64,000 nucleotides of DNA from the NCBI GenBank assembly GCA_003854985.1, contig RQOG01000046.1, forward strand, positions 62,001 to 126,000, read 5' to 3'. A model generated the notes under the pieces. That model was not told the DNA's origin. It worked only from the letters and a program-made list of their open reading frames with translations, and searched no databases. The DNA comes from Calditrichota bacterium. Lineage in GTDB: Bacteria > Calditrichota > Calditrichia > Calditrichales > Calditrichaceae. A program made the translations under genes and the position numbers. This document shows, piece by piece, positions 8,131 through 54,539 of this stretch (the first letter of the stretch is position 1; each line of letters begins with the position of its first letter).

Positions 8131-8142
8131 TCGTGCCCTCAT

Positions 8143-10026: not shown

Positions 10027-10055
10027 TTGACAAATTTTTGATTTTTTCATACTTT
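10027..10055 (+). promoter_or_regulatory. sigma-70-type promoter for the lipoprotein/LysM operon
   Basis: A perfect TTGACA (10027-10032), 17-base spacer and TACTTT (10050-10055) lie about 40 bases upstream of the lipoprotein start codon, after the aspS stop. The -35 is ideal and the -10 partial. No transcription data; called by consensus and position. Confidence 0.5.
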
Positions 10056-10094
10056 GAATTTCAAATCGCATAAACTTACACCAGGAGGCGTTAC

Positions 10095-10361
10095 ATGAAT
10101 AAATTACTCAGTTTTGTTGTTCTTCTGCTTTTCACATTATCCATCTCTAGCTGCGGTTGGAAAGCCGGTGAAGAAGACATCAAACTACTTGAAGAAGCAA
10201 AAGCAGCAGCACTGGCGGCCGAAAAATCGTTAGCCGATAAAAAGGCAGAACGTCAGGGAGTCGAGAAACAAGTCGAAGCTAAACAGGCAGAGTTAGCTAA
10301 AATTCAGGCAGACAAGGAAAAAGTTCTTCAACGTGTTGCAGAAATGAAAGCTGCAGAGTAA
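10095..10361 (+). CDS. small coiled-coil lipoprotein
   Basis: An 88-residue protein with a lipoprotein signal peptide (lipobox SISSC, Cys at about residue 20). The mature part is almost all Ala/Lys/Glu/Gln, predicted as one long coiled coil (LLEEAKAAALAAEKSLADKK and onward). Such small helical lipoproteins resemble Lpp or the envelope spacer lipoproteins, but no named family is claimed. Ribosome site AGGAGG is ideal. It is 36 bases upstream of a LysM gene, so both are probably co-expressed, linking outer membrane or inner membrane to peptidoglycan. Confidence 0.8.
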   Translation: MNKLLSFVVLLLFTLSISSCGWKAGEEDIKLLEEAKAAALAAEKSLADKKAERQGVEKQVEAKQAELAKIQADKEKVLQRVAEMKAAE

Positions 10362-10397
10362 AAAAACAAAAAGAAAATAATACAGGAGATAGAAATC

Positions 10398-11246
10398 ATG
10401 AAAGTGAAAATTTTGACTATTTTTGTTCTGCTTGTTTCTTTGCTAGCTTTCAGCAATGCCTTTGCTCAGTACTCATATAATTATGAGGAAATGGAAGAAG
10501 AGCAGTACAATGCATATTTAGCTGAATGGCAGGGAAGAACACAGACAGCAGAATCAGGTATTGAACAGGAAAACAAAACCATCGATTCTCTTAATGCGTT
10601 ACTTGGAACTATCCAAGGCGATATCGATGCTTCATGGAATGAAATTTTTGAAGCAACCGGCTTAACCAAAGCCGATTATGACAAATATGTAAGTGATTTA
10701 GCCGCTCTAAAAAATGATGCCCGCGGAATGGTTAGCATGTCACCGGAAGAAATATACAGAAGAATGGATGAAGTCGATGCCATGCAGGCTAAAATTGATG
10801 AATTAAAGAAAAGTCCTTTCGCCGTGATGAGCGATAATGAAAAAGCGATCAGCGAAATTGAAAGCTTAATCGCTCAGGCAAAAGAAAAAGGCAAACCAGC
10901 AGTTCCGCCTACCTATACGGTTTTGAGAGGCGATTGTCTGTGGAGAATTGCCGGAAAACAGGATATCTATGGAGATGCTTATGCCTGGATGCGGATTTAT
11001 ACATCAAATCGTGACCAGATTAAAGACCCAAACCTGATTTATGTAAATCAGAGATTCAATATTCCTCGTGAAGTTGGTCCTAATGAACACCTGGTAGTAC
11101 GGGGTGAATTTCTGGCCAAAATTGCCGGTTACTCAAATGTGTATGGCAGTGCTTTCAAATGGCAAAGATTATACGAAGCTAACAAAGAGGTCATAGCTGA
11201 TCCTAACATGATTTATCCATATCAGCTTTTAAAAATTGTCAGGTAG
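10398..11246 (+). CDS. exported protein with two C-terminal LysM domains
   Basis: A 282-residue exported protein: signal peptide ending SNAFAQ, an N-terminal helical/coiled-coil region (residues 30-165), then two LysM-like modules. The first starts YTVLRGDCLWRIAG and the second EHLVVRGEFLAKIAG; both include a YGDAYAW/YGSAFKW segment and a P-N-x-I-Y step typical of the longer LysM variant. LysM binds GlcNAc in peptidoglycan. No catalytic domain is visible, so this is a wall-binding or scaffolding protein, expressed with the upstream coiled-coil lipoprotein and followed by a strong terminator. Confidence 0.9.
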   Translation: MKVKILTIFVLLVSLLAFSNAFAQYSYNYEEMEEEQYNAYLAEWQGRTQTAESGIEQENKTIDSLNALLGTIQGDIDASWNEIFEATGLTKADYDKYVSDLAALKNDARGMVSMSPEEIYRRMDEVDAMQAKIDELKKSPFAVMSDNEKAISEIESLIAQAKEKGKPAVPPTYTVLRGDCLWRIAGKQDIYGDAYAWMRIYTSNRDQIKDPNLIYVNQRFNIPREVGPNEHLVVRGEFLAKIAGYSNVYGSAFKWQRLYEANKEVIADPNMIYPYQLLKIVR

Positions 11247-11270
11247 CATTTAGATTTAAATATATTGAAA

Positions 11271-11305
11271 AAGAGCTTCCGGTATAAAGCCGGAAGCTCT
11301 TTTTG
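11271..11305 (+). terminator. strong Rho-independent terminator after the LysM gene
   Basis: A perfect 12-bp stem AAGAGCTTCCGG/CCGGAAGCTCTT (11271-11282 and 11290-11301) with a 7-base loop, followed by a T run to 11304. Confidence 0.95.
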
Positions 11306-11310
11306 TTTAT

Positions 11311-11432
11311 ATGGCGGCGGTTAAGGTCCGTGGTAAAGGACAAAATGCCCAACTGCTTTGGATGACGCCATTGACTTTAGTCAATATTCGATGAAGCCAC
11401 AATGCGGCAAGCAGAACATAGCCAGCCGCCAT
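11311..11432 (+). other. structured non-coding element of unknown type (nested inverted repeats)
   Basis: This stretch between the LysM terminator and phoH is less AT-rich than other spacers and has no open frame. Three inverted repeats are nested: ATGGCGGC (11311-11318) with GCCGCCAT (11425-11432); CTGCTT (11353-11358) with AAGCAG (11409-11414); and an inner hairpin ATTGAC-TTTA-GTCAAT (11370-11385). It could be a small RNA, a phoH leader, or a MITE-like or attC-like palindromic repeat. No family is recognised. Confidence 0.4.
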
Positions 11433-11473
11433 TCGGCGAAAGAGCACAGCGATTTTGAAGGATGAGGTTTTAT

Positions 11474-12499
11474 ATGGAAAATATTCTGGAAGAAGTTTTT
11501 ACTATACCAAGCCAGATTGAGCCTATCTACATTTATGGAAATAAAGATTCAAATATTGCTGTAATTGAGAACAATCTGAATGTCAGGTTAGTAGGACGAG
11601 GTCACCAGATCAGAATATACGGTAAACCCTATGATGTTAACTCTGTAAAAATTGTACTTGAAGATATTATCGCTGCTGCCAAAAAAAGTAAATATATGAA
11701 TATCTCAGATCTGGAGACAAGCATTAATATTGCCCGACATGAAACAGAAAAAACCATCCCTGGTTTTCAGACAGTCCGCCCGGTAAATAATGCAATCACG
11801 ACCATAAAAAATACAATTATCCGGGCAAAAACCGATGGTCAGCAGCTTTTGTTGGATGAAATTGATAAGAACGATATCGTTTTTTCCATAGGCCCTGCGG
11901 GTACCGGAAAAACATATCTTGCTGTGGCTAAAGCCGTGCAATATTTAAAAGAAAGCCGGGTCAAGAAGTTAATATTAGCCAGACCTGCCGTGGAAGCAGG
12001 CGAAAGTCTGGGATATCTGCACGGCGATTTTCGGGAAAAAATCGATCCGTATTTAAAACCTTTATATGATGCTTTGGAAGATATGATGCCGGTCGATTTG
12101 TTGAAGAAATATATAGACCAGGGAATTATCGAAATTTTACCTCTGGCTTATATGAGAGGCAGAACTTTGAACAATGCGTTTGTTATCCTGGATGAAGCTC
12201 AGAATACAACTTTTACACAAATGAAGATGTTTCTGACAAGATTGGGAATAAATTCAAAGGCAGTTATTACGGGCGATATAACCCAGATTGATCTTCCTAC
12301 ATCAAAAGATTCTGGGCTGATTGCCAGTGTTAGAATTCTGGAAAATATTACGGGTATTTCTTTTGTCAGAATGAAAAAAGATGATGTGGTAAGGCATCAG
12401 TTAGTAAAAGACATTATTGATGCTTATGATCGATATGGAAATGAAAAGAAAGGTGATATAAATTCCTCCGTCCTTGATAACTCTGGTAAAAATGAGTAG
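11474..12499 (+). CDS. phoH: PhoH-like ATPase
   Basis: A PhoH family protein of about 341 residues from the ATG at 11474. It has an N-terminal KH-like RNA-binding segment (residues 1-90) and a P-loop ATPase domain with GPAGTGKTYLA near residue 140 and the Walker B region VILDEAQNTT near residue 240. PhoH proteins are thought to act in RNA metabolism and ribosome maturation, often beside ybeY, which is not next to it here. The start at 11474 is preferred because AAGGATGAGG sits at correct distance; the in-frame ATG at 11462 is inside that ribosome site. Confidence 0.93.
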   Translation: MENILEEVFTIPSQIEPIYIYGNKDSNIAVIENNLNVRLVGRGHQIRIYGKPYDVNSVKIVLEDIIAAAKKSKYMNISDLETSINIARHETEKTIPGFQTVRPVNNAITTIKNTIIRAKTDGQQLLLDEIDKNDIVFSIGPAGTGKTYLAVAKAVQYLKESRVKKLILARPAVEAGESLGYLHGDFREKIDPYLKPLYDALEDMMPVDLLKKYIDQGIIEILPLAYMRGRTLNNAFVILDEAQNTTFTQMKMFLTRLGINSKAVITGDITQIDLPTSKDSGLIASVRILENITGISFVRMKKDDVVRHQLVKDIIDAYDRYGNEKKGDINSSVLDNSGKNE

Positions 12500-12645
12500 A
12501 TTTCACACTTCAAAGAATATATAACATTGTAGTTATTAAATGTGACAGATTGTTTATTATAAGTTAAAAGCAATTGACTAATATAATAAAATATAATCAG
12601 AATGCTTTTTAGTATGAGAATTAGTTAAGGAATATACATAAAAAA

Positions 12646-13098
12646 GTGAAAATAAAGCGTAGGAAAGAACGGGAATATATATTACAAATTTTGTATGCCC
12701 AGGAATTTAATACGGTTTCGTATACAGAAATTATTGAGCATCTGATACCTGACTATAAATTAAAATTAACCGCTTTTATTGAGAATGTTTTAGACAAATG
12801 TATAGTTAAAAAAACTGAAATTGATAAATACTATATTGATAAATTGCAAAACTGGGACATTAAACGGGTAGCGGTTATGGATAAAATTTTATTAAGAATG
12901 GCTGTGGCTGAATTCTTGTTTTGTCCTGATATTCCGCCGGAAGTTACTATAAATGAAATCATCGAAATAAGTAAAGTTTACAGTACAGATCGCAGCAGCA
13001 AATTCCTTAATGGTATTCTGGATGCAGTTCTCAAAGAATTAAAAAATAAAAATTTGATGAAGAAAACGGGAAGAGGACTCATTGCTTCTTCCGGGTAA
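12646..13098 (+). CDS. nusB: transcription antitermination factor NusB
   Basis: A 150-residue all-helical NusB. The N-terminal RRKEREYILQILYAQEF matches the family start and the C-terminal part has PPEVTINEIIEISKVYS and SSKFLNGILDAVLKEL, both diagnostic. NusB binds boxA RNA with NusE (S10) to sustain rRNA transcription. It starts with GTG; the ribosome site is weak, with AAGG about 15 bases upstream. The 146-base spacer before it is AT-rich and holds no other gene. It lies upstream of a phosphoesterase gene and secA on the same strand. Confidence 0.92.
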   Translation: MKIKRRKEREYILQILYAQEFNTVSYTEIIEHLIPDYKLKLTAFIENVLDKCIVKKTEIDKYYIDKLQNWDIKRVAVMDKILLRMAVAEFLFCPDIPPEVTINEIIEISKVYSTDRSSKFLNGILDAVLKELKNKNLMKKTGRGLIASSG

Positions 13099-13148
13099 AA
13101 GATCAATTAAACCTGATTTGTTTTTTAACTGATATCGGAACAGAAAAC

Positions 13149-13862
13149 ATGAAAATTGCAATTTTTTCTGATATTCACGGCAATGTTGAAGCGCTCAGAA
13201 GCGCGCTTAAATATCTCGATAAACATAAAATAGATAATATTTACTGTCTTGGCGATATCGTTGGATACGGTCCCTCGCCAAATGAGTGCGTGGAAATTGT
13301 ACGGGACAGATGCGAAATGGTTTTAATGGGCAATCATGATTATGCTGCGATAGGGCTGGCCAATATTGATTATTTTAATGATTATGCAAAAATGTCGACA
13401 TACTGGACCATCAATCACCTGACCGATGAAAACAAAGATTACCTTCGATCGCTGCCTTTTTCACATCAAAATGATGAATTGGTTATGGTGCATTCTTCTC
13501 CAACCAATCCGTCGCACTGGTATTATATCCTGTCACAGCAGGATGCTAAAATTGAAATGGAATCCTTTAACCAACAGTTATGCTTTATTGGCCATTCCCA
13601 TGTTCCGGTTATTTTTCAGAAAAAACTAATGTTCCGTAAGACAAAATTTAAACTTGAACAAAACGAAAAAACAATCGTTAATGTGGGAAGTGTGGGACAG
13701 CCGCGTGACGGCAATCCAAAATTATGCTTCGCAATTTATGATGATGAAAACAAGACAATCGAATATATTCGTCTTGAATATGATGTTAAAAAAACATATA
13801 AAAAAATCGTTGAGGCCGGTTTGCCAATTTTCCTGGCAGAAAGGCTATTGAAAGGATATTAG
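13149..13862 (+). CDS. calcineurin-like metallophosphoesterase (YfcE/MJ0936 type)
   Basis: A 237-residue cytoplasmic protein with the metal-binding motifs of calcineurin-like phosphoesterases in order: FSDIHGN (residues 6-12), GDIVGYG (36-42), MGNHDY (around 61-66), VHSSP and GHSHVPV (around 155-161). Such enzymes hydrolyse phosphodiesters or phosphomonoesters using two metal ions. Substrate is not evident. It is 10 bases upstream of secA, and probably shares its transcript. Confidence 0.9.
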
Positions 13863-13872
13863 TGAGGAAAAA

Positions 13873-16830
13873 ATGCTGATAAAAACTATCCAGAAAATAT
13901 TTGGCACAAAACATGAGCGGGATATTAATAAAATAATACCCCTTGTGGCGCAGATAAATCATTTTTTTGAAGAATATGAAAGTTTAAGCGAGGAAGCTTT
14001 AAAAGCTAAAACAGAAGAGTTTAAAGAACGTTTGCAGAATGGCGAGACCATGGATGATATTTTACCTGAAGCCTTTGCAGTGGTTAAACAAGCCTGTAAA
14101 CGATTGCTTGGCTCAACATGGAAAGCTGTCGGCCATGATATTAAATGGGATATGGTGCCTTATGATGTACAGCTTGTTGGCGGTATTGTGCTGCATCAGG
14201 GTAAAATTGCTGAAATGGCTACCGGAGAAGGTAAAACGCTGGTTGCAACGCTTCCCTTGTATCTGAATGCTCTGGAAGGAAAGGGCGCGCATCTCGTTAC
14301 CGTCAATGATTATCTGGCGCAGCGCGACTCGGAATGGATGGGGCAGATTTTTAAATATCTTGGATTAACGATTGGTGTAATTCTTAATGATATGACTCCG
14401 GCTCAGAGGAAAGAGGCTTACAGCTGCGATATTACTTACGGTACGAACAATGAATTTGGTTTTGATTATCTGCGCGATAATATGGCCGGTTCAAAAGATA
14501 ACATCGTCCAGACGCGCGGACATCATTATTGTATTGTAGACGAAGTCGACAGCGTTTTAATTGACGAAGCCCGCACACCTCTGATTATTAGTGGACCGGT
14601 AAGTGAGTCGACGCATAAATATCAGGAAATGAAACCGCTTGTCGAAAGGCTGGTAAACAACCAGACACGATTGGTTAATTCGATTATCCATGATGCCGAA
14701 GAACTGCTGAAGAAAGACGATGAGCGCCATGCGGGTATGAAATTGCTGTTGGCTGAAAAAGGCGCTCCTAAAAATAAACGTCTGGCTAAGTTGTACCAGG
14801 AGCAGGGTATTAAAAAATTAGTACAGAGTGTGGAAAATGATTATCTGAGGGACAAAGGACAGAACAAAACCTCTGATGAACATTACTTTGGCGAACTATA
14901 TTTTATGGTTGATGAAAGAAATCATGTTATTGATCTGACAGAAAAAGGACGTGAAAATCTGAATCCAGCCGATCCGGAGATGTTCCTTTTACCAGATCTG
15001 GGTACAGAAATCGCTAAAATAGAGGATGATGCCAGTCTGTCGTATGAACAAAAAATAATAAAAAAAGAAGAACTCCATAATCTTTACAATGAACGTAGTG
15101 AGAAACTGCAAAATATTTCACAGTTATTAAGAGCCTATTCTCTGTATGAAAAAGACGATGAATATGTCGTGCAGGACGGCAAGGTGATGATTGTGGATGA
15201 GTTTACCGGCAGAATTATGCATGGCCGCCGTTACAGCGATGGACTTCATCAGGCGATTGAAGCCAAAGAAAATGTAAAAATTGAAAGAGAAACACAAACT
15301 CTGGCCACAATCACTCTGCAAAATTATTTTCGAATGTACAATAAATTAGCCGGTATGACCGGTACTGCTGAGACCGAAGCTGCAGAATTCTGGGAAATTT
15401 ATAAGCTTGATGTGATCGTTATTCCAACGAATAAACCGATTGCCCGTTTGGATATGAATGATGTTATTTACCGCACTAAACGCGAAAAATATAATGCGCT
15501 TGTCGAACAGATTGTCAAAGAAAGAGATAAAGGAAGACCGATTCTGGTAGGCACTACTTCCGTAGATGTTTCGGAAACAGTCAGGCGAATGTTGAAAAGA
15601 CAAGGCGTTAAGCACAATGTTTTAAATGCCAAGCAACACCAGCGTGAAGCTGAAATTGTGGCCCACGCCGGCGAGCCCGGAGCAGTAACCGTCGCGACTA
15701 ATATGGCCGGTCGTGGAACGGATATTAAACTGGGTGCAGGCGTTGCTCAATCCGGCGGGTTGGCTATTCTTGGAACGGAAAGGCATGAATCCCGAAGAAT
15801 TGACCGTCAGTTACGCGGACGAAGCGGAAGGCAGGGCGATCCCGGAAGCAGTGTGTTTTTCCTGAGTCTGGAAGACGACCTGTTAAGATTATTTCGCAGT
15901 GATCGTATTGCCAGTGTAATGGACCGGTTGGGCGCTAAAGAAGGCGAAGTAATTACACATTCGATGATTACACGTTCCATTGAAAAAGCCCAGAAAAAAG
16001 TTGAAATGCAGAATTTTGCCATTCGTAAACGCCTGCTGGAATATGATGACGTAATGAATCAGCAGCGCGAAATCATTTATGACCGCCGCCGTGTTGCTCT
16101 TACGGAAGAAGATGTCCGTATGGAAGTACTGGATATCATGGAAGAATATATTGATCATCAGTTTAATATGTTTACGGGCGGCAGCTCTCATCCCGAAGAC
16201 TGGGATATAGATGGACTTGAAGCGGAAATTGGCACAACTCTAAAAGTTTCCTTCACCCCGATCCGCGAAAAAATGGGCAGTTATACACTTGAAGAACTGC
16301 GCGAATATATTCGCGCAGAAGCTTTGAAAATATACGAAGCCAAGGAAAACCGGATCGGTAAAGAGCGGATGAATATGCTGGAGCGCTATTTCATCCTGAT
16401 GGTTATCGATGAAAAATGGAAAGATCACCTTTATGAAATGGATATTCTTAAAGAAGGTATCCATTTAAGGGCCTATGGGCAAAAAGATCCTCTGATCGAA
16501 TATAAGCGTGAAGCTTTTAATATGTTCGAAAGCCTGATACATTCCATTAATCTGGACATATTAGGATGGCTATGGAAATTCCAAATCCAGGAACAACCGA
16601 TGAACCGCGCAGAAAGCCGCCGGCAGCAACGGATGCAGTTAGTGCATGAGTCGGCTTCCGGAATGGGATTTGATGGTGTCGGAGAAGAATCGGACATTCA
16701 AAAAGCCTCGCATCAGCGGTCGGATAAAAAACAGCCGATTCGGGTGGAACAAAAAATCGGGCCCAACGACCCCTGTCCTTGCGGAAGCGGCAAAAAGTAT
16801 AAAAAATGTCACGGCGCTATTCATAACTGA
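13873..16830 (+). CDS. secA: preprotein translocase ATPase SecA
   Basis: SecA, 985 residues. The motor has Walker [10 protein letters not shown] near residue 115, [15 protein letters not shown] near 222, the second nucleotide domain ([23 protein letters not shown] near 612-624, [14 protein letters not shown] near 645), wing and scaffold domains, and a C-terminal zinc-binding tail [14 protein letters not shown]. It drives export through SecYEG. It is longer than E. coli SecA (901) mainly through extra sequence at about residues 255-350, as seen in Bacteroidota and relatives, one of the reasons for suggesting an FCB-group host. Ribosome site GAGGAAAAA. Confidence 0.98.
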
Positions 16831-43545: not shown

Positions 43546-46275
43546 ATGGCAAATACAATATATCTGGTCGATGGTTCGGCTTTGTTTTACAGAAGTTATT
43601 TTGCCTTTATACGTAATCCCCTTATTAACTCAAAAGGTGAAGATACTTCAGTTACTTTCGGCTTTTTATCGTCTTTAATTCATCTCATAGAAGAGCAAAA
43701 CCCTACACATCTGGCAATTATATTCGACACAAAAGAACCAACCTTCCGCCATAAAATTTACCCGGCATACAAAGCCACCAGAGAAAAAATGCCTGAAGAA
43801 ATGGCGGCCCAATATCCACGTTTGATCGATTCTCTTAAACGATTGAATTTTATGCTTATCGATAAGGAAGGTTTTGAAGCGGATGATATCATTGGTACGC
43901 TTGCCACCAGTTATGCTTCGTCTGAAAATCAAATCTATATTGTATCCGGTGACAAGGATATGGCCCAGCTCGTCAACGAAAATATTTTTTTATTCAATCC
44001 GGGAAAAAGCAACCAGCCGCCGGAAATACTCGATGCTGAAGGCGTGCGGGAGAAAATGGGCGTTAAACCCGAACAGATTATAGACTGGCTGGTAATGATT
44101 GGTGATAGTTCGGATAATATCCCAGGCATTCCGAAAATCGGTAAAATTACGGCTATAAAATTACTCGGAAAATATGGTTCACTATCTTCTGTTTATGAAC
44201 ATCTTAATGAAATCGATCAAAAAGTCATCAAAGAAAATTTAATAACCTATCGCGAACAAACTAAAACAGCCGAAAAACTGGCCGCCATCCGGTTAGACGT
44301 GCCGGTAGAACAGAAACTGGATGATCTCTGTTTTCGGCTTTGGGATATTGATGAGGCTGAACGCGTCATGCAGGAACTGGAATTTCGAAGGCTCTCCGAT
44401 CGCATGCGGAAAATTGCCCGGTCTGAAAATAAATTGGAAGAGCTTAAAAAGCAGGAGGATCAAACGGTCAGTTACCAGTTAATTGATACAATGGAATCTT
44501 TGGATCAACTGGTAACGCAATTGAAGCGGCAAAAACAATTTGTTTTTGATCTTGAAACCAGTTCACTGGATTTTTTAACCGCACAGATTGCCGGAATCGC
44601 CCTGGCCTGGGAAGAAAACAAGGCCTACTATATTCCGGTTTCTCATCCAAATATTGCACTGGACAAGGAAGCCGTTCTAAATAAGCTGCGGCCGGTATTT
44701 GCGGATCCTGCGATTAAAAAAATTGCCCAGAATATTAAATTTGATGCGATGATTTTACGCGAACATGGTGTCGAAGTCCGCGGTATGTATTTCGATACCA
44801 TGATCGCCGCGTATTTAATCAATCCCGGCTCTCAGCTGAAGTTAGATAAACTATCGGAATATTATCTTAATTATGAAATGATTCCTATAGAATCGCTTAT
44901 CGGAACGGGCAAAAATCAAAAATCGATGACAGAAGTACCGGCGGAAGAAGCGGCCCGATATGCTGCGGAAGATGCTGATATTGAACTGAAATTATATCAG
45001 ATTTTTAAGAAAAAACTTACGGAACTTGGTCTTGACAATTTATTCTATAATCTGGAAATGGCTCTTGTACCTGCTATTATGCAAGTGGAGAAGAACGGCG
45101 TTAAAATTGATACCGGTTTACTACAGCAGCTTTCTGAAAAATTGGAAGTTAAAAATTCCAAACTGGAAGAAAAAATATATAAAGAAGCCGGCGAATCGTT
45201 TAATCTGAACTCTCCCCAGCAATTGGGGAATATTCTTTTTGATAAACTCCAGATTCATAATGAGATTGGTGTAAAAAAACCTAAACGTACGAAAACCGGT
45301 CAGTATTCAACGTCCGAGTCGACCCTGGAAAGATATGCGGCGCATCCTGTAATTCAGGATATTCTGGATTACAGAAAACTGACTAAGCTTAAAAACACTT
45401 ACATTGATATTTTGCCCGGACTGATCAGTCCTGTAACGGGGAAAGTACATACCTCATTCAATCAGACTGTAACCACAACGGGCAGACTTTCCAGCAGTGA
45501 TCCGAATTTACAAAATATACCTATCCGTACCGAAATCGGCAGGGAAATCCGTAAGGCCTTTATTCCATCTCAAAAAGACTGGTTAATCCTCAGTGCGGAC
45601 TATTCGCATATCGAGTTGAGAATTATGGCTCACCTTTCCCGTGATGAAAATATGCAGCGAAGCTTCAGGCAAAAACAGGATATTCATGCGTCCACGGCGG
45701 CCCAGATTTTTAATATTCCAATCGAAATGGTTTCGGGTGATCAGCGCAGAAAAGCCAAAGAAATCAATTTTGGAATAATTTACGGGATGAGTCAATACGG
45801 ACTGGCCGCCAGGCTCAATATCGGCGTTGAAGACGCGGAAACATTTATTGCGGAATATAAGGCGACTTATCCGGGTATAGACCTTTTTATGAAAGCGGCA
45901 ATCAAAATGGCCAGAGATAAGGGATACGTGGAAACGATTATGAAAAGGCGCAGATATCTGCCTGAAATCAGGAGCGACAATTTTCAGATAAGACAATTCG
46001 CGGAACGGACGGCTATTAATACACCTATTCAGGGATCAGCGGCCGATTTAATAAAAAAAGCAATGATTGAAATTCATGATTTTATTTATAAACATCAACT
46101 GCCGGTGCGGATGCTACTGCAGGTGCATGATGAATTAGTCTTTGAGGCTGAAAAAAGTACGATCAATAATTTCGCCGGTGAAGTAAAGAAAATTATGGAA
46201 AATACATGGAAATTCGATCTCCCTATCATTGCCGAAACGGGAATTGGAGAGAACTGGCTGGAAGCGCATGAATAG
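43546..46275 (+). CDS. polA: DNA polymerase I
   Basis: PolA of 909 residues with all three parts: 5' nuclease (about 1-290, LVDGSALFYRSYFAF and SGDKDMAQLV), a 3'-5' exonuclease domain with acidic residues kept (FDLETSSLDF near residue 335), and the polymerase domain (TTTGRLSSSDPNLQNIP, ADYSHIELRIMAHLS, RRKAKEINFGIIYGMS, LQVHDELVFE). Proofreading therefore looks intact. It converges tail-to-tail with the MBL gene 3 bases away without a visible terminator. Confidence 0.98.
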   Translation: MANTIYLVDGSALFYRSYFAFIRNPLINSKGEDTSVTFGFLSSLIHLIEEQNPTHLAIIFDTKEPTFRHKIYPAYKATREKMPEEMAAQYPRLIDSLKRLNFMLIDKEGFEADDIIGTLATSYASSENQIYIVSGDKDMAQLVNENIFLFNPGKSNQPPEILDAEGVREKMGVKPEQIIDWLVMIGDSSDNIPGIPKIGKITAIKLLGKYGSLSSVYEHLNEIDQKVIKENLITYREQTKTAEKLAAIRLDVPVEQKLDDLCFRLWDIDEAERVMQELEFRRLSDRMRKIARSENKLEELKKQEDQTVSYQLIDTMESLDQLVTQLKRQKQFVFDLETSSLDFLTAQIAGIALAWEENKAYYIPVSHPNIALDKEAVLNKLRPVFADPAIKKIAQNIKFDAMILREHGVEVRGMYFDTMIAAYLINPGSQLKLDKLSEYYLNYEMIPIESLIGTGKNQKSMTEVPAEEAARYAAEDADIELKLYQIFKKKLTELGLDNLFYNLEMALVPAIMQVEKNGVKIDTGLLQQLSEKLEVKNSKLEEKIYKEAGESFNLNSPQQLGNILFDKLQIHNEIGVKKPKRTKTGQYSTSESTLERYAAHPVIQDILDYRKLTKLKNTYIDILPGLISPVTGKVHTSFNQTVTTTGRLSSSDPNLQNIPIRTEIGREIRKAFIPSQKDWLILSADYSHIELRIMAHLSRDENMQRSFRQKQDIHASTAAQIFNIPIEMVSGDQRRKAKEINFGIIYGMSQYGLAARLNIGVEDAETFIAEYKATYPGIDLFMKAAIKMARDKGYVETIMKRRRYLPEIRSDNFQIRQFAERTAINTPIQGSAADLIKKAMIEIHDFIYKHQLPVRMLLQVHDELVFEAEKSTINNFAGEVKKIMENTWKFDLPIIAETGIGENWLEAHE

Positions 46276-46277
46276 CT

Positions 46278-47147
46278 TTATAATTCAATAATCATATTCT
46301 CATAAGCCGCGCTGATTTTGATTAGAGTATCTTTTACCGATTTTTGCGCCTGCTCCAACAGACGATCAATGGTTATATCGTCATGCATCGGATCATGATG
46401 GAACAAAACCAGATGCTTGACTTTCGCCTGTAAGGCAAGATAAACGGTATAATCAACGGGTGAATGCCCCCAGGTAACTTTTTTCAGATATTCATCTTTC
46501 GTATACTGTGCATCATGGATTAATAAATCGGTTCCCTGCAAAAAATTAATTAATTTCTGAGTGGCATCTTCTCCGATCAATATTTCTTCCGGCTCTTTTT
46601 GCGAAAGGAGATAACTTTTATATGGTTCGTTGTCACTGATATAGATTAAAGTTTTGTCGTCAAAATAAAATTTATATCCAAGTGCATTGCCCGGGTGATT
46701 CAGATAAATGGTATCTACCCTGTAGCCGTTTATTTTGTATTGTCCTTCGTATAAACCGTTAAAAGTGAGCTCGGCGCCCATGTCTTTTAATTCAACCGGA
46801 AAATAGGTTGGATCCATCTGGTCAGCTATGATAGTGGCCAGATCTTTATCAGGCTCTTCACCTCCGTAGAAATTGAACTGGTTGCCAGGGACAAACGCCG
46901 GCGTGAAAAACGGGATGCCCTGGATGTGATCCCAATGCATATGGCTTATGAATATATTGGCTTTAATCGGCGGCGTCCTTTTTAACAAATCCTGTCCTAG
47001 TTCTCTCAGTCCCGAACCGGCATCCAGAATAATCAAACTATCGTTATAACTGACTTCTACGCAGGAAGTATTACCACCATAGCGTACTGTCGAAGGTCCT
47101 GGCGTGGGAATAGAACCTCTTACACCCCAGAAACGTATTTTAGTCAT
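46278..47147 (-). CDS. metallo-beta-lactamase-fold hydrolase
   Basis: A 289-residue MBL-fold protein: IRFWGVRGSIPTPG at the N-terminus, the zinc motif SHMHWDHIQG near residues 77-86, LNHPGNALGY, and a late HDAQYT and FHHDPMHDD. This group includes phosphodiesterases of PhnP-like and cyclic-nucleotide type, but the substrate is not evident. Its start overlaps the end of the upstream response regulator by 4 bases, so they are made together. Confidence 0.9.
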   Translation of the reverse strand: MTKIRFWGVRGSIPTPGPSTVRYGGNTSCVEVSYNDSLIILDAGSGLRELGQDLLKRTPPIKANIFISHMHWDHIQGIPFFTPAFVPGNQFNFYGGEEPDKDLATIIADQMDPTYFPVELKDMGAELTFNGLYEGQYKINGYRVDTIYLNHPGNALGYKFYFDDKTLIYISDNEPYKSYLLSQKEPEEILIGEDATQKLINFLQGTDLLIHDAQYTKDEYLKKVTWGHSPVDYTVYLALQAKVKHLVLFHHDPMHDDITIDRLLEQAQKSVKDTLIKISAAYENMIIEL

Positions 47148-47524
47148 GCGGATTTCCGGATATAGGTATCGATATAAGCAAGAAGATCCTTAACTGCAAT
47201 TGGTTTGGTGAGAAATTTATCTGCGCCCATCATTATTGCTCTTTTTTCTTCAGGCGGAAATGCTTTTCCGGTAAGTATAATGGTTGGAATTTTACCAAGA
47301 TAATGATGTTCTTTTATTTTTTTTAAAAGGGTGAAGCCATCCATTTCAGGCATCATAATATCCAGAATAATAAGTCTTGGATTCATAGATTCCAGTTTTT
47401 CTATGGCGCCTTCCGGATTAGAAATAACCGCTGTTGAATATCCATAATAATTTAAAAGCTGAGAAGCCGCTTCGGTATGATCCTGACTGTCGTCTATAAG
47501 CGCTATATCAGTTGAAATGCCCAC
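47144..47524 (-). CDS. single-domain response regulator
   Basis: A 126-residue CheY-like receiver only: LIDDSQDH, phospho-acceptor Asp in ILDIMMPEMDG, LTGKAFP and KFLTKPI with the invariant Lys. No output domain. GTG start. It is coupled to the MBL hydrolase gene, which may be its output enzyme, and diverges from an outer-membrane operon with a CRP-like site between. Confidence 0.9.
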   Translation of the reverse strand: MGISTDIALIDDSQDHTEAASQLLNYYGYSTAVISNPEGAIEKLESMNPRLIILDIMMPEMDGFTLLKKIKEHHYLGKIPTIILTGKAFPPEEKRAIMMGADKFLTKPIAVKDLLAYIDTYIRKSA

Positions 47525-47591
47525 GTATACTCCTTAATTAAACTGATGGTTATGTGACACATGTTAGTATAAATTTTAGGGCAATTTATGT

Positions 47592-47607
47592 TGTGATAGG
47601 TGTCACA
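47592..47607. promoter_or_regulatory. CRP/FNR-type binding site in divergent spacer
   Basis: TGTGA-TAGGTG-TCACA, an exact match to the symmetric TGTGA-N6-TCACA consensus, lies between the divergent response regulator (start about 70 bases away) and the outer-membrane operon (start about 135 bases away). An additional half-site ATGTGACAC (47552-47560) is the reverse complement of GTGTCACAT (47600-47608). No CRP-family gene is in the window. Confidence 0.55.
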
Positions 47608-47741
47608 TGGTTTCAACATCCAAAAAAATTTAATTGATTATTGAATTATTATGATTTACCCGATAATCTTTATCATGTAACTTTATTGTAACCGGTTCGT
47701 AAAATCACCTTGATGATAGTTTCATTTAAAAGGAAAGCAAA

Positions 47742-49346
47742 ATGCTAAAAGTGCGCCTAATAATGCTACTAATAATACTCTTTTACGGATTCTGTTTAGG
47801 GGAAGATGAAGAAGTGCCATTTTCCGAATTAAGGCAAAAAGCAATTGAAAAATTCATAGACAATAAGGAAAAGGAAATACGGGATTTTAAAGGCAATATA
47901 ACCATCGGCAAAAATGACTCTGTCAGTACTCATATTATAATAGAAAACGGCAATCTCGAAGTTCAGGGTATAATCTCGGGCGATGTAATTGTGATATTCG
48001 GTGATGCAACCGTTAAACCCGGAGGTAGCATCAATGGAAACCTGAGTGTCATTAACGGCAGAATTTACCAGGCTAAAAACGCCGTAGTAACCGGTACGCA
48101 AATCGAAACGAATGTAAAAAATCTGTTCCCCCCGGAAGAATGGAAAAGCGGTCTTTCCGAAAAATTCGGAGAATATATCGATCGTTTACATAAAAACGAT
48201 TTTGGCTCTTACAGCACTTTACCTCTTGGTTTTCGTACTCTTTCAACTATAATCCGCTATAATAGAATTGAAGGACCTTTCATTGGTTTGGAATTGCCCA
48301 AAATGATAGGCGGAAAATATACCATGTTCAATGTTTATGGGTTCGGAGGATATGGATTTGGCCAGAATAAGTGGCAGTATAAGCTTGGTATTAATAAATG
48401 GTTTTTTAGTCAGACCGATAATCGCCTGGAAATTGGCGGAGAAAGTTTTGATTTTAATGATACCAAAGATTTCTGGATTATTACGCCTTTTGAAAATTCT
48501 CTGTCTGCTATTCTTATTCATGAAGATTTCCAGGATTTTTACAGAATAGAAGGTTATAAAATCTACGCTTCGCTTAATTATACCATATTTCTTCAGTTTA
48601 CTCTGGCTTACAATGCGAACAGATACAAATCACTGGAGAATAATGTCGAATGGGCATTGTTTGGCGGAAAGAAAAAATTTGACAATAATCCGGCGGTTGA
48701 TGAAGGAAATATGAAAAGCATTACCGGTAATATATATCTTGATACGAGAGATAATAAGGATAATCCGCGTTCCGGATGGTATGCATTATTTTCGGGAGAA
48801 ACCTCTAATTCGGGATTAAACAGTGATTTCTCGTTTAATCAATATAACCTGGAAATCAAAAGATATCAGCCTTTAAGCCGATATGAAAGACTGGATATAC
48901 GTCTGATGGCTGGAACCGCCCAGGGCTTTTTACCATTTCAGAAATCTTATGATCTTGGCGGTATTGGCACAATTCGGGGTGCCGGTTTTAAGCAAATTCG
49001 CAGCCAGAGATATAACAGAGATGTAATAATCGGATTCGACCGGATGCTGTTGGCAAATGTTGAGTATAATATCAATCACCGGATTTTTCATTCTGGTTTA
49101 TCATTGTTAAATGATTTAAATTACATTTTAATTTTTGATATCGGTAACGCCTGGCATAGGGATCAATATGAACAGGATAATCGCTGGTATAAAGGTTTTT
49201 CCCATTTGCAATGGCGGGACATGATAACGAGCGCGGGTATTGGAATCGTCAGTTGGTCGGGAAGAGCGCGATTAACTCTGTCCCGGCGTCTGGATTCAGG
49301 CAAAGATCCCATGAGAATTTCATTACGTTTGAGAAAACCTTTCTAA
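47742..49346 (+). CDS. outer-membrane protein: beta-helix-like domain plus Omp85-like barrel
   Basis: A 534-residue exported protein. After a signal peptide (ending near residue 20) and a charged segment, residues about 55-120 form short repeated strands (IIIENGNLEVQGIISGDVIV, GDATVKPGGSINGNLSVING) like bactofilin or polymer-forming beta-helices. Residues about 155-534 are a transmembrane beta-barrel with the Omp85-type GGIGTIRGAGF motif and a terminal Phe (RLRKPF), as in BamA/surface-antigen barrels. POTRA domains are absent. First gene of a three-gene envelope operon; AAAGGAAAG precedes the ATG. Confidence 0.82.
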   Translation: MLKVRLIMLLIILFYGFCLGEDEEVPFSELRQKAIEKFIDNKEKEIRDFKGNITIGKNDSVSTHIIIENGNLEVQGIISGDVIVIFGDATVKPGGSINGNLSVINGRIYQAKNAVVTGTQIETNVKNLFPPEEWKSGLSEKFGEYIDRLHKNDFGSYSTLPLGFRTLSTIIRYNRIEGPFIGLELPKMIGGKYTMFNVYGFGGYGFGQNKWQYKLGINKWFFSQTDNRLEIGGESFDFNDTKDFWIITPFENSLSAILIHEDFQDFYRIEGYKIYASLNYTIFLQFTLAYNANRYKSLENNVEWALFGGKKKFDNNPAVDEGNMKSITGNIYLDTRDNKDNPRSGWYALFSGETSNSGLNSDFSFNQYNLEIKRYQPLSRYERLDIRLMAGTAQGFLPFQKSYDLGGIGTIRGAGFKQIRSQRYNRDVIIGFDRMLLANVEYNINHRIFHSGLSLLNDLNYILIFDIGNAWHRDQYEQDNRWYKGFSHLQWRDMITSAGIGIVSWSGRARLTLSRRLDSGKDPMRISLRLRKPF

Positions 49347-49352
49347 AATCCT

Positions 49353-51104
49353 ATGAGCAGAATTTTAAAAAATATAATCCATAGCATCATTTTGATATAC
49401 TTCCTGTTCGGAATAATACAAGCTCAAAACAGAGAACTGGAATTGAATAATCTTCATCATTCGCAATTACATATGGCCGGCTTTCAGATTAAGTCGGATA
49501 AAATAGTAAACATTAAAGCTGTAGGGTCCGGCGCTGATAAGGCTATCAGTAATTTAAAAAATCCGCATGCAGATATTTCCAATATGTATGCCTATGCATG
49601 GATTATTAATGCCAAAAGCAGAAAAATGGTTTGGAGAATGACGGTCGATAATACCAGGCAAAAGGGGTGGTCGGATTTAAGCCGTGAATTTGATGGTTCC
49701 GTACATCTTGATGCCGGCATATATGAGGTGTATTTTTCCGCGGTGGAGCCCGAGTTCTGGAATACGAGAGATGGTTTTTTTTCTTTTAAAAACTTATTGG
49801 AGAAGCTTTTACAAAGGAATAACGACTGGGAGAATCAGGCCAGGGAATGGATGTTAAAAATCTCTAATATTGATGGCGTATTTGATGCGCAGGAAATCAA
49901 AAAAATCAAAAATAAATTAAAAGGTAAAATTATAATTGATTTAACAGAAATTCGTAACAAGCAGGAAATTTCTTCCGGTTTTACATTGAAAGAACCGGCG
50001 AAATTAAACATCTATGCAATCGGTGAAGGTTTCGATGATAAAATGTATGATTACGGCTGGATTATCAATGCGGATACATGGAAAAAAGTCTGGAGTATGG
50101 AAGAGGATGAAACAGAACATGCCGGCGGCGCAGCGAAAAATAGAATGATCAATGAGGATATAGAATTTGAAGCCGGTAGTTATCTTGTTAAATATACTTC
50201 TGACGGCAGTCATTCCTATGAAAAATGGAATTCAAATCCACCATATGATCCTGCGGCCTGGGGTATCATTGTGCGTCCGGGAGATGATAAAGACTTTGCT
50301 CCTTCCATCTGCATCAAATTACCGAAAGAATCGGTGCAGCCGATTATTTCCCTGACCAAAATCGGAGATTATGCTTACAAAGAGCAAATGTTTTCTATTA
50401 GCCGGCCTACAAGATTAAGAATTTATGCTTTAGGCGAAGGCCGTTCAGGGGATATGTTTGATTACGCCTGGATTACCAATGCCCAAAACGGCAAAATAGT
50501 CTGGAAAATGGAATACAAAGAGACAAAACATGCCGGCGGCGCTTCCAAAAACCGTTTATTTGAAGATATTATTAAATTGGATTCAGGCGAATATATTGTT
50601 CACTATCAGAGCGATGATTCACATTCTTATGAGGAATGGAACAACAAAAAACCCCAGAACCCTGAAATGTGGGGCATCACCTTATATCCGGTTGGCGATC
50701 GGAACGCTATATCGCTTGAAGCGGAGGAAAAAGTCCGAAATAATATTATTGCCCAGATAGTGCGGGTTGGCGATGATGAACACATTAGGAAAGAATTTTA
50801 CATCGATGAGAAAACAGAGGTCCGAGTCTACTGTATAGGGGAAGGTGATTCCGATGAAATGTATGACTATGGCTGGATTGAGCAGGCTGAAACAGGGCGT
50901 AAGGTCTGGAAAATGAAATATAAACATACAGATCATGCGGGAGGAGCCCAAAAGAACAGGGTGGCGGATAAAGTTATAACACTCGAAGAAGGAAAGTATC
51001 GTATTCATTACCGCTCCGATGATAGTCATTCTTTTTATGAATGGAATGACAAAGCGCCGTATGATCAAAAAAACTGGGGCATTACGCTTTACAAGATAGA
51101 TTAA
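49353..51104 (+). CDS. exported protein with three to four repeated ~110-residue modules, unknown function
   Basis: A 583-residue exported protein with signal peptide ending IIQAQ. It contains one divergent and three well-conserved modules (about residues 40-140, 200-315, 340-455 and 470-583). Each shows a YDY-[GA]-WI core, a W-x-M then HAGGA-x-KNR loop, a SDxSHS-[YF]-x-x-W-N motif and a final WGI. The conserved His/Asn/Arg pattern suggests a ligand- or metal-binding beta-sandwich, but no named family is recognised. It is 6 bases after the barrel gene, so it may be held at the cell surface or in the periplasm. Confidence 0.8.
   Translation: MSRILKNIIHSIILIYFLFGIIQAQNRELELNNLHHSQLHMAGFQIKSDKIVNIKAVGSGADKAISNLKNPHADISNMYAYAWIINAKSRKMVWRMTVDNTRQKGWSDLSREFDGSVHLDAGIYEVYFSAVEPEFWNTRDGFFSFKNLLEKLLQRNNDWENQAREWMLKISNIDGVFDAQEIKKIKNKLKGKIIIDLTEIRNKQEISSGFTLKEPAKLNIYAIGEGFDDKMYDYGWIINADTWKKVWSMEEDETEHAGGAAKNRMINEDIEFEAGSYLVKYTSDGSHSYEKWNSNPPYDPAAWGIIVRPGDDKDFAPSICIKLPKESVQPIISLTKIGDYAYKEQMFSISRPTRLRIYALGEGRSGDMFDYAWITNAQNGKIVWKMEYKETKHAGGASKNRLFEDIIKLDSGEYIVHYQSDDSHSYEEWNNKKPQNPEMWGITLYPVGDRNAISLEAEEKVRNNIIAQIVRVGDDEHIRKEFYIDEKTEVRVYCIGEGDSDEMYDYGWIEQAETGRKVWKMKYKHTDHAGGAQKNRVADKVITLEEGKYRIHYRSDDSHSFYEWNDKAPYDQKNWGITLYKID
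49950..51101 (+). repeat. three tandem protein-coding repeats (~110 codons each)
   Basis: Copies at about 49950-50300, 50370-50720 and 50760-51101, recognisable by the repeated HAGG(A/S)xKNR and SDxSHS(Y/F)xxWN coding segments. DNA has diverged more than protein, so this is an old duplication. Confidence 0.75.
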
Positions 51105-51119
51105 TTAGAGGAGTTTAAA

Positions 51120-51908
51120 ATGAGAACCTTATTTATAGCAATTTTTGTACTCATGTATTCTCATAGTCTCTTCTCGGCAACTCTGGAAGAGACGCTTAAA
51201 AAGGAAATCGATGTAACCGGTCAGCAAAACTTTACGATAGAAAATCTGAATGGCAAAATTAAAGTAGAAGGCTGGGATAAATCCCTGGTCAGCATTGAAG
51301 CCCGTAAACAGGTAAAAGCATCCGATAAAGAAACCGCAAGAGAAATATTGGAGGCACTTGAAGTTATCATCGATATCGACGATGAAATAATTTCAGTTTC
51401 AGTTAATCATCCAAATCAGAAATCCGGGAGCGGTTTTCTGGCCTGGCTTTTTGACGATCATCGCTGGAACGCATCGGTTGATTTTACGGTATATATTCCG
51501 CATAAAATGAATATGGACGTTTCTTCTACAAACGGAAAACTGCAAATTTTACAATGTGAAGGGTTGCTCAACCTGGAAACCACCAATGGAAGCATCGATG
51601 GAGAACACCTGTCCGGTTCGGTAAACTGCAATACAACAAACGGGTCCGTGAAAATATATATGAACGAAGTAAGTATAGATAAAGATATGAAATTTAGCAC
51701 TACAAACGGTTCGATAAAACTTTATCTGCCTAAAAGCATAAATGCAAACATAGAAGCAAATACGGTAAATGGTAATGTTGTCTGCGATTTACCTGTGAAA
51801 GATGTTGATCAGCAGTCCCGGAAAAAACTAAGGGCCCGAATCAATGCCGGTGGACCAGTATTAGTGTTAAAAACCACGAATGGCAGTATTCATCTTAAAG
51901 CAAGCTAA
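51120..51908 (+). CDS. DUF4097-like exported protein
   Basis: A 262-residue exported protein with a signal peptide (ending LFSAT) and a repetitive strand pattern: IENLNGKIKVEGWDKS, STNGKLQILQ, LETTNGSIDGEHLSGS, NTTNGSVKIY, STTNGSIKLY and KTTNGSIHL. The T-N-G-[SK]-[IV] ladder is the hallmark of DUF4097 right-handed beta-helices. Function unproven; such proteins often are envelope-stress or adhesion-like. It is the last gene of the barrel/repeat operon, followed by a terminator. Confidence 0.88.
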   Translation: MRTLFIAIFVLMYSHSLFSATLEETLKKEIDVTGQQNFTIENLNGKIKVEGWDKSLVSIEARKQVKASDKETAREILEALEVIIDIDDEIISVSVNHPNQKSGSGFLAWLFDDHRWNASVDFTVYIPHKMNMDVSSTNGKLQILQCEGLLNLETTNGSIDGEHLSGSVNCNTTNGSVKIYMNEVSIDKDMKFSTTNGSIKLYLPKSINANIEANTVNGNVVCDLPVKDVDQQSRKKLRARINAGGPVLVLKTTNGSIHLKAS

Positions 51909-51927
51909 ATATTCATCATTTTAAATT

Positions 51928-51951
51928 AACCGGCTAAAAGCCGGTTTTTTG
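51928..51951 (+). terminator. Rho-independent terminator after the envelope operon
   Basis: An 8-bp stem AACCGGCT/AGCCGGTT (51928-51935 and 51939-51946) with a three-base loop and a T run. Confidence 0.92.
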
Positions 51952-52056
51952 TTTATTATAATTATCAATTTTTCTGTATATAATTACAATTGATCTGAGA
52001 TTTCCGTCATATTAAATTCACAAATTACGATTCATGCAATGTAAGGAGAGGACCGG

Positions 52057-53261
52057 ATGGATAGTAAGGAATATATTCGTATTGAAGATACATACGGAGC
52101 GCACAATTATCATCCTCTGGATGTTGTTGTAGCCGAGGCAAAAGGGGTATGGGTAAAAGACGTTGACGGAAAAAATATATGGATTTTCTCAGCGCGTATT
52201 CTGCCGTAAACCAGGGACATTGCCATCCAAAAATTTATAAAGCGATGGTAAAACAGGCAAAAAAAGTAACGCTTACTTCCCGGGCATTCCGTAATGATCA
52301 ATTAGGCGCCTTTTGTAAAAAGCTGGCTCAAATAGCCGAAATGGATATGGTTCTTCCTATGAATTCCGGTGCTGAAGGTGTGGAAACGGCTATCAAAGTG
52401 GCCAGAAAATGGGGATATAAAATAAAAGGTATTCCCGATAATAAGGCAGAGATCATTGTATGCCGGAATAATTTTCATGGCAGAACAACCACTATTGTGG
52501 GCTTTGCCACAGAAGAACAATATAAAGATGGCTTTGGACCTTTTACTCCGGGTTTTAAGATAATCGATTATGGCTCAGCAAAGACGCTACAGGAAGCAAT
52601 AACGGAAAATACGACGGCATTTATTGTTGAACCGATTCAGGGCGAAGGCGGTATTTTAATTCCGGAGGAAGGTTATCTGAAAAAGGTGCAGGATATATGC
52701 CAGGCAAACAATGTATTGTTTATCGCCGATGAAATTCAATCGGGTTTGGGCAGAACAGGAAAATTTTTCGCCTATCAACATGAAGCGGGCGTTAAACCGG
52801 ATATGCTGATTGTTGGTGAGGCTATTTCAGGAGGATTTTATCCGGTTTCCGCTGTGATAAGCAGTAAGGAAATATTGGGAGTACTCAATCCCGGAGATCA
52901 TGGCAGTACCTTTGGCGGGAATCCCCTGGCCTGCGCTATTGCCATGAAGGCGCTGGATGTGATCGTGGAAGAAAATCTCGTACAAAAGTCAGCAGAAATG
53001 GGAGAATATCTTAAGGATAAGCTATTAACCATTTCCAGCAATCATGTTAAAGAAATCCGCGGCAGAGGATTATTTATAGGTATCGAATTGAAGCCCGAAG
53101 CCGGAGGCGCCCGTAGATTTTGCGAGTATCTTCAGGAGAAAGGTTTGCTTTGCAAGGAAACGCATGTACATGTGATACGGTTGGCTCCGCCATTGGTAAT
53201 ATCCAGGAAGGAAATTGACTGGGCCTTCGAAAAAATAAAAGAAGCGCTAACAACGCTGTGA
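52057..53261 (+). pseudogene. rocD: ornithine aminotransferase, frameshifted and lacking the PLP lysine
   Basis: A class III aminotransferase close to ornithine aminotransferase, about 400 residues if repaired. The N-terminal part (from ATG 52057, with AAGGAGAGG) runs in one frame to a stop at 52207-52209; the rest continues from DFLSAYSAV in another frame, so a base is missing in the A6 run at 52170-52175. Motifs NSGAEGVETAIKVAR, FIADEIQSGLGRTGK and GSTFGGNPLACA are intact. But the PLP-binding Lys of the usual GKAL-x-GG is Glu (GEAISGG, GAG at 52818-52820). Both changes suggest loss of aminotransferase activity. A base-calling error in the A run could explain the first, not easily the second. 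Confidence 0.8.
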
Positions 53262-53271
53262 TACAAATTTT

Positions 53272-53297
53272 GGCTGATTTTCAGATCAGCCTTTTTT
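53272..53297 (+). terminator. Rho-independent terminator after the aminotransferase gene
   Basis: A 7-bp stem GGCTGAT/ATCAGCC (53272-53278 and 53285-53291) with a six-base loop, followed by six T. It overlaps the stop of the convergent symporter gene. Confidence 0.8.
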
Positions 53298-54539
53298 GTT
53301 TTTTAATACTTTCAGATTATTTTCGCCTTCGCTTCTGGCAATAATCACCGTGCCGCAGCTATCGCTCCATACATTTACTGACGTCCTCAGCATATCCAGT
53401 GGTCGATCCACGGCAAGGATCAAAGCCAGGTATTCGAGATCAAGTCCGACTGCATTAAGAATTATGGCCATCATTACAAATCCGGCCATCGGAATACCCG
53501 CTGCTCCGATGCTGGCTAAAAGCGCAGTTAATACAACAATAAATTGTTCCATGACACCTAATTCAACACCTGCTACCTGAGCGATAAACATGGCGGCTAC
53601 GCATTCATATAAAGCCGTTCCATCCATATTGATTGTCGCGCCAAGCGGTAGAACAAAACTGCTTATTTTATTGGAAACACCGGTGTTATTTTCAACGGAA
53701 TCGATCGTTAACGGAAGCGTAGCGGAAGATGAAGAAGTCGAAAAGGCTGTCAATAGCGTTGAAGACATCGCTTTAAATTGAGCAATGGGAGAAATTCCTC
53801 CGACAAAATACAGTAATAAGGGTAGCGTAAAACAAGCATGCAGACCTAATGATAGTATTACAACGCCCATATATTTTGCCAAAGGTAAAAAAACGGCAAT
53901 GCCGGTTTCTGCCACTGTTTTTGCGATAAGCGCAAAAACGCCGAGAGGAGCAAAGCCTATAATAAACCGGGTCATCCGCATCATTACTTCAAAAACAGAT
54001 TGAAAAAATAATGTTAAATGACTTTTATACGGATCAGGCGTTTTATTTATGAAAAATCCAAAAATAAGCGAGAAGAATATGATAGGCAGAATATCCCCTT
54101 TAACCATTGCATCGATAATATTTGATGGAATAATCCCGATTAATGTATCCAGCAGTTTGCCCATATCACCGTCAATCGAATGTAGCATTTCGGTTTCCGG
54201 GAGCACGGCACCGATCCCCGGCTGAATGATATTGACAAATAATAATCCGGTGAGAATCGCTGATAAACTGGTAACAATATAATATGAAAATGTTTTAATG
54301 CTCAATCGTCCAAAGTTCTCTGAACTGCCTATATTGGCGACACCGGAAATGATGGAAGTGATAATTAACGGAATAATAATCATCTGTAAGGCGCGTAAAA
54401 ACAAAACTCCTAAAAGGCTTATCTTGTTTATAACAAAATCTTCAAAATTAAATACCTGGGAAATTATAGCCAGGATAACGCCCGCCGTCATTCCAATTAA
54501 AATTTGCCAGTGCAGTTTCAATTTAAACATAAAATCCAT
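53286..54539 (-). CDS. dicarboxylate/amino-acid:cation symporter (GltP/GltT family)
   Basis: A 417-residue DAACS-family transporter with about eight membrane helices and two re-entrant hairpins: the serine-rich loop TSSSSATLPLTID, GATINMDGTALYE (helix 7 NMDGT motif), and the final DMLRTSVNVWSDS. It imports glutamate, aspartate or dicarboxylates using Na+ or H+. Convergent to the aminotransferase gene. Substrate not fixed by sequence alone. Confidence 0.95.
   Translation of the reverse strand: MDFMFKLKLHWQILIGMTAGVILAIISQVFNFEDFVINKISLLGVLFLRALQMIIIPLIITSIISGVANIGSSENFGRLSIKTFSYYIVTSLSAILTGLLFVNIIQPGIGAVLPETEMLHSIDGDMGKLLDTLIGIIPSNIIDAMVKGDILPIIFFSLIFGFFINKTPDPYKSHLTLFFQSVFEVMMRMTRFIIGFAPLGVFALIAKTVAETGIAVFLPLAKYMGVVILSLGLHACFTLPLLLYFVGGISPIAQFKAMSSTLLTAFSTSSSSATLPLTIDSVENNTGVSNKISSFVLPLGATINMDGTALYECVAAMFIAQVAGVELGVMEQFIVVLTALLASIGAAGIPMAGFVMMAIILNAVGLDLEYLALILAVDRPLDMLRTSVNVWSDSCGTVIIARSEGENNLKVLKNKKG

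Follow-up and report, generated by a model that had tools for sequence, protein, structure and literature searches.

Three adjoining genes in the window (the whole 64,000-nucleotide stretch of Calditrichota DNA that we analysed) are, judged from their sequences and those of their relatives, a real, conserved and apparently undescribed envelope gene set, which combines known fold types with one module family that is absent from the libraries searched. We refer to their products, in gene order, as BAR, REP and TOA. The composition and linkage of this trio are well supported, and from them we infer a function at the cell envelope. The three open reading frames lie head to tail on the + strand, with gaps of 6 nt and 15 nt:

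47742..49346, + strand: BAR, exported fusion of a bactofilin-like beta-helix and a POTRA-less Omp85-superfamily barrel, 534 aa (ORF, Pfam and relatives)
47874..48116, + strand: bactofilin-like region of BAR, about aa 45-125 (alignment to the relatives that match PF04519, 10/19)
48219..49343, + strand: Omp85-type barrel domain of BAR, about aa 160-534 (Pfam and alignment)
49353..51104, + strand: REP, exported four-module protein without a known sequence family, 583 aa (ORF, library searches and module HMM)
49440..49748, + strand: REP module 1, degenerate, lacking the AGGAxKNR and DxSH motifs, residues 30-132 (module HMM)
49935..50276, + strand: REP module 2, canonical, residues 195-308 (module HMM)
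50346..50693, + strand: REP module 3, canonical, residues 332-447 (module HMM)
50754..51098, + strand: REP module 4, canonical, residues 468-582 (module HMM; the module that was modelled alone)
51120..51908, + strand: TOA, exported DUF4097/Toastrack protein, 262 aa (ORF, Pfam and NCBIfam)
51928..51946, + strand: intrinsic-terminator-like hairpin followed by a T-run, 20 nt past TOA (terminator scan)

The initial annotation had described three exported products of nearly contiguous genes, and both points stand: besides the short gaps, a simple hydrophobicity scan finds an N-terminal export-type hydrophobic segment in each of BAR, REP and TOA, and no further strongly hydrophobic stretch in any of them. 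Since the terminator scan returned 5 sites where shuffles predict 3.7, the argument for the hairpin is its position 20 nt past the TOA stop codon. The promoter scan was uninformative (20 found, 17.1 expected), and Rfam has no match within 46000-53500 of the window. The trio may well form one transcription unit, a proposal that shares the somewhat less than even probability that we give jointly to the explanation favoured below. Pfam identifies the genes immediately around the trio as those of a receiver-domain protein, a metallo-beta-lactamase-fold protein and an aminotransferase. The first two (46278-47524, - strand), of which the receiver-domain protein is a single-domain response regulator, are encoded divergently from the trio with a 4-nt overlap; we considered this pair as a conserved regulatory neighbour and dropped it, as it does not lie upstream of the trio in relatives. 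Downstream, the class-III aminotransferase gene (52057-53261, + strand) has a frameshift close to the beginning: read from 52057, the frame gives ...DVDGKNIWIFSARILP*, and the remainder continues in another frame from 52179. The aminotransferase of a relative (L037:8742) is intact at this site, and the frameshift may be either a sequencing error or a real lesion.

BAR appears to be an Omp85-superfamily barrel in which a bactofilin-like N-terminal domain replaces the POTRA domains. Its C-terminal domain matches Pfam Omp85 (PF01103) with an E value of 2.3e-16, above the gathering score, and DUF5686 below threshold; among 19 relatives, PF01103 is matched by all 19, DUF5686 by 18 and Bactofilin (PF04519) by 10. 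Pfam finds no POTRA domain in BAR itself, and POTRA domains were matched in 0/19 BAR-family proteins at E up to 0.01, a search that a distant POTRA could escape; these results agree with the POTRA-less, Omp85-like barrel proposed earlier. In the place of POTRA, the N-terminal part of BAR aligns with the bactofilin-like relatives, the Pfam profile PF04519 itself giving no match in the BAR of the window. The barrel contains an IRG-type motif within LGGIGTIRGAGF, where the family consensus is LGGxSTLRGY; a [V/I/L]RG[F/Y]-type motif marks the L6 loop of the Omp85 superfamily, and the motif in BAR, in which the STLRGY of the alignment consensus reads TIRGAG, may correspond to it. In REP-linked loci of the Ignavibacteria type, the N-terminal domain of BAR is short and different. 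The third gene had been recognised as encoding a DUF4097 protein, in agreement with a Pfam match of TOA to PF13349 (E 1.5e-11, 44.6 bits against a cut-off of 22.9); its LiaG/LiaX-like NCBIfam matches lie below cut-off. TOA is an exported, beta-helical Toastrack protein.

REP consists of four repeats of a module of 117 residues (module HMM, 117 positions), three of them canonical, with the complete set of conserved motifs, and one degenerate, where at least three had been counted before. The same architecture prevails among 141 module-bearing ORFs in the fetched loci, with four modules in 128, six in 3, three in 2 and one in 8. The six-module proteins (L057, L058 and L059) are REP paralogues of about 850-880 aa from one family of the class. 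Across 90 diverse modules, G37, E38, D46, W49, W60, A70-G72, K75, N76, G88, Y90, D97, H100, W105, N106, P110 and G117 are nearly invariant. The previous inability to name a family for REP is matched by the libraries: Pfam and NCBIfam give nothing above cut-off, PHROG no match better than E 0.014, and the PDB no convincing match by sequence and no chain at all with the module profile. No Pfam family is matched by more than 2 of the 90 modules, none of these searches returned a known intracellular family, and the viral contigs searched hold no relatives. Pfam matches of REP to CopC and Bact_surface_Ig-like, as well as stray single-module matches, were rejected as below cut-off and inconsistent. 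That REP is not a chance product follows from its presence in 39/40 genomes of its class, the Calditrichia, and from the exactly four modules in 128/141 proteins.

At E up to 1e-6, REP matches were found in those 39/40 class genomes (the genome of the window included) and in 11/345 genomes outside; the one class genome lacking a match has a completeness of 62%. Gene contexts could be taken from 38/40 class genomes, leaving out one with a fragment only (G033) and one with none (G039). BAR lies directly upstream of REP in 29/38 and TOA directly downstream in 26/38, and the complete order BAR-REP-TOA is present in 25/38, so the neighbour survey proposed in the initial annotation finds the trio conserved. 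Several of the remaining genomes are truncated there: contigs end at most 170 nt downstream of REP in G004, G018 and G037, and within about 500 nt upstream of it in G028, G035 and G038. TOA is missing in G009 and BAR in G022, each with about 6 kb present on the relevant side, and G029, G034 and G036 have neither partner with at least 4 kb on both sides. G030 carries a BAR-TOA pair elsewhere without REP (L092), and seven second-copy REP loci surveyed (G002, G009, G016, G019, G024, G025 and G027) have no adjacent BAR or TOA.

Outside the class, loci were collected by a contig scan with a single peptide pattern, which gave 159 stretches, 154 of them with relatives, and 80 were kept. By their record titles, REP relatives occur in Calditrichota, KSB1, Zixibacteria, Ignavibacteria/Chlorobi/Bacteroidetes and Rhodothermia, and further in Gemmatimonadota, Latescibacterota, Marinimicrobia and Kapaibacterium, a spread across FCB-type phyla in which REP usually stands alone. 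On a tree of 81 REP proteins (the 80 loci and the window, none dropped), with partners counted within four genes, 54 have neither partner and 15 have both, while BAR alone accompanies 9 and TOA alone 3. Since REP lies without BAR or TOA nearby in 54/81, it is not simply a dedicated passenger of the barrel. The partner labels are clustered on the tree, with 11 changes over all four groups where shuffles give 25.5 (0/200 shuffles reach so low a number), and partnered REPs fall in three clades, Calditrichia, KSB1 and Ignavibacteria. On the branches starred in the tree, the 'no partner' label has to change at least 4 times; the deep branches are weak, so a single ancestral linkage followed by losses may also explain the pattern.

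Gene order differs between these clades. KSB1-type loci combine BAR, TOA-like and/or LiaF-like genes with REP in one direction and in another order than in the class (BAR...TOA-like...REP in L127, L142, L151 and L160), and Ignavibacteria-type loci have the order REP-BAR (L132, L147, L156, L161 and L171). In L173 and L175, BAR and TOA form a cluster with REP elsewhere in the genome. The REP, BAR and TOA families appear to keep re-associating across phyla. Genome-wide co-occurrence points the same way, with BAR-family matches (E up to 1e-20) in 11/11 REP-bearing outside genomes against 3/19 REP-free ones, a comparison confounded by relatedness since the REP-free controls came from other phyla. 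A phylum-wide control was abandoned because the sampled phyla held 9 genomes and 1 genome and linkage could not be separated from descent; in one small phylum both families are present in 9/9 genomes, which is uninformative. Zixibacteria-type loci have a neighbourhood of another kind, in which REP follows TldD/TldE (PmbA) metallopeptidase-family genes (L112, L115, L117, L123, L141, L150, L152, L163 and L070).

ECF sigma genes were considered as a general partner and rejected: 155 loci centred on REP or BAR hold 13 sigma-like ORFs, 9 of which lie no more than about 2.2 kb from REP or BAR, and none was found beside any class trio. A link is suggestive in lineages outside the class only. In L177, an ECF sigma gene and an unassigned gene are separated from BAR by one further gene, and in L086 a BAR and TOA cluster is led by ECF sigma and zf-HC2 genes, with REP not found in a genome that is 59% complete. 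The L086 cluster (6793-14147, + strand) reads, in one direction, ECF sigma, zf-HC2/HEAT, two Toastrack proteins, a bactofilin-Omp85 barrel, a protein of unknown type and another Toastrack.

The predicted structure of REP module 4 alone is an eight-stranded beta-sandwich (pLDDT 96.5, pTM 0.89), and beta-sandwich modules also make up the model of a full-length REP relative (L073, pLDDT 83.4). The solved structures closest to the single module are the prepeptidase C-terminal (PPC) domain 5sv5 (Z 8.4, 91 residues at rmsd 2.9), the pair of collagen-binding domains of ColG in 5iku (Z 8.0, 96 residues at rmsd 3.2) and Kremen in 5fwt (Z 7.9, 94 residues at rmsd 3.0); CUB and GOLD domains follow at Z of about 7, within about 1 Z of the PPC best. 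PPC profiles match 0/90 modules at E up to 0.05, and we read the likeness of the predicted fold to PPC/collagen-binding and CUB domains as a shared arrangement that does not prove kinship. Structural matches to viral haemagglutinin and toxin domains were taken as shared sandwich topology only, and Foldseek matches of whole REP, which were long, of low TM and to multidomain proteins, were not considered meaningful, the single module giving a cleaner result. When the poles of the modelled module are assigned from strand order, with loops AB, CD, EF and GH at one pole, the 7 polar loop residues with a conservation of 80% or more all belong to loops EF and GH at that pole and 0 to the opposite pole, and E38 and D46 flank loop CD at the same pole. 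The contrast (7/58 against 0/22 residues) is weak and not significant alone, given that the poles hold such different numbers of residues. Together, these positions suggest that each canonical module has a conserved candidate binding site at one of its poles.

The module is also found inside two-component propeller sensors. On contig C44 of the same genome, a 1226-aa histidine kinase carries one module within its propeller part and is followed by a LytTR response regulator; a 907-aa propeller protein (L087) and a propeller-SpoIIE protein (L089) each contain a single inserted module. Among the class genomes, 12/40 have a module match inside an open frame of more than 1,000 aa of the propeller-sensor kind, an architecture confirmed by Pfam in two of the 12 (L085 and L089) and in one genome outside (L087). 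L089 (2037-17087, - strand) encodes three clustered propeller-type proteins with one inserted module each, and one of them, scanned with Pfam, ends in a SpoIIE phosphatase domain, not a kinase.

Given these observations, we favour a model, to which we assign slightly less than an even chance, in which BAR, REP and TOA act as a system for maintaining and sensing the outer membrane and periplasm: (i) the exported Toastrack and the bactofilin-like domain would form a beta-helical scaffold beneath the outer membrane, around the barrel; (ii) REP would bind a small ligand, a glycan or a partner through the one-pole site of its canonical modules; (iii) it would act where the barrel faces the periplasm, or on the surface if the barrel exports it; and (iv) the module-bearing sensor kinases would detect the same ligand and tune envelope functions. 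In other lineages, an ECF sigma factor is encoded beside these genes. A broader version, which we hold with considerably less confidence and regard as rather unlikely, sees an envelope homeostasis system across FCB-type phyla, with one ligand-binding module, which has no sequence relatives in the libraries searched, used twice for the same ligand: fourfold in the secreted REP, next to a bactofilin-Omp85 barrel and exported Toastrack proteins, and singly in propeller kinases and phosphatases.

As the main alternative, BAR could be a POTRA-less translocon that exports REP as a surface adhesin or glycan binder, with TOA as periplasmic chaperone or tether. The adjacency of BAR and REP in three clades, the translocases among Omp85-superfamily barrels described in PMC4104836 and the predicted resemblance of the module to collagen-binding and CBM-like domains speak for such a pair; however, REP is distant from BAR in most genomes, its sole export feature is the N-terminal hydrophobic segment, with no C-terminal sorting domain or TpsA-type beta-helix in the model, and BAR has none of the POTRA domains by which two-partner secretion systems capture their substrates. 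We consider this unlikely. The earlier proposal of an undescribed envelope system is retained in part: the trio is conserved and the modules match no known intracellular family, the two points on which it could have been refuted, but nothing places REP outside the cell as opposed to the periplasm, and the proposed surface or secretion role is neither supported nor contradicted. With equally low probability, REP could serve FCB-type bacteria as a housekeeping protein for binding or folding in the periplasm, placed with BAR and TOA out of operon convenience and sharing no complex with them, as its solitary occurrence in most phyla, its near-universality in the class and the TldD/TldE linkage in Zixibacteria loci would suggest; the repeated adjacency to both partner families in three clades with differing gene orders argues against it. 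A Lia/PSP-type envelope stress operon with its PspA/PspC parts replaced is less probable still, as the Toastrack nature of TOA with its sub-threshold LiaG/LiaX-like matches, the LiaF-like C-terminal proteins adjoining BAR or REP in relatives and the ECF sigma/zf-HC2 genes of some lineages are countered by the absence of PspA, PspC and LiaRS among the immediate neighbours tested and by the export signal of TOA, Toastrack being argued to be intracellular in PMC11237479.

REP is nearly universal in its class and spread over many uncultured FCB-type phyla, yet absent from the family libraries searched, and its linkage to a bactofilin-like/Omp85 barrel and an exported Toastrack points to envelope biology, of which we know of no counterpart in model systems. 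The module in sensor proteins offers a direct handle for finding the ligand.

We found no title on a trio of bactofilin-Omp85 barrel, REP and DUF4097 protein in the literature on bactofilin, Omp85, Toastrack and Caldithrix abyssi, and its parts can be set against known systems one by one. As an Omp85 barrel without POTRA, BAR resembles the POTRA-less Omp85/TpsB forms such as 'noNterm' (Heinz and Lithgow 2014, PMC4104836); it differs from them in its genomic linkage to REP and TOA, and its bactofilin-like beta-helix is not named for the ten Omp85 subfamilies in the sections of that paper available. The missing POTRA domains also set the BAR family apart from BamA, TamA and TpsB, and the trio from two-partner secretion, from which it is further distinguished by the predicted beta-sandwich modules of REP, which match no Pfam family above cut-off. 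The predicted fold of these modules is like that of PPC/collagenase collagen-binding and CUB domains, but they lack a PPC sequence match, have their own motif set and are never peptidase-attached in the architectures surveyed. TOA shares its above-threshold DUF4097 match with the Toastrack proteins of PSP/Lia envelope-stress systems; TOA differs from those of PMC11237479 in being exported, unfused to PspC or LiaF-TM and encoded beside an outer-membrane barrel. PspC, PspA and LiaI-LiaF-TM are likewise absent among the immediate neighbours of the trio. Finally, BAR appears to share beta-helical motif repeats with the bactofilins (PF04519), a family that 10/19 of its relatives match, whereas its bactofilin-like domain lies behind an export segment and is fused to a barrel, and would therefore be periplasmic rather than cytoplasmic.
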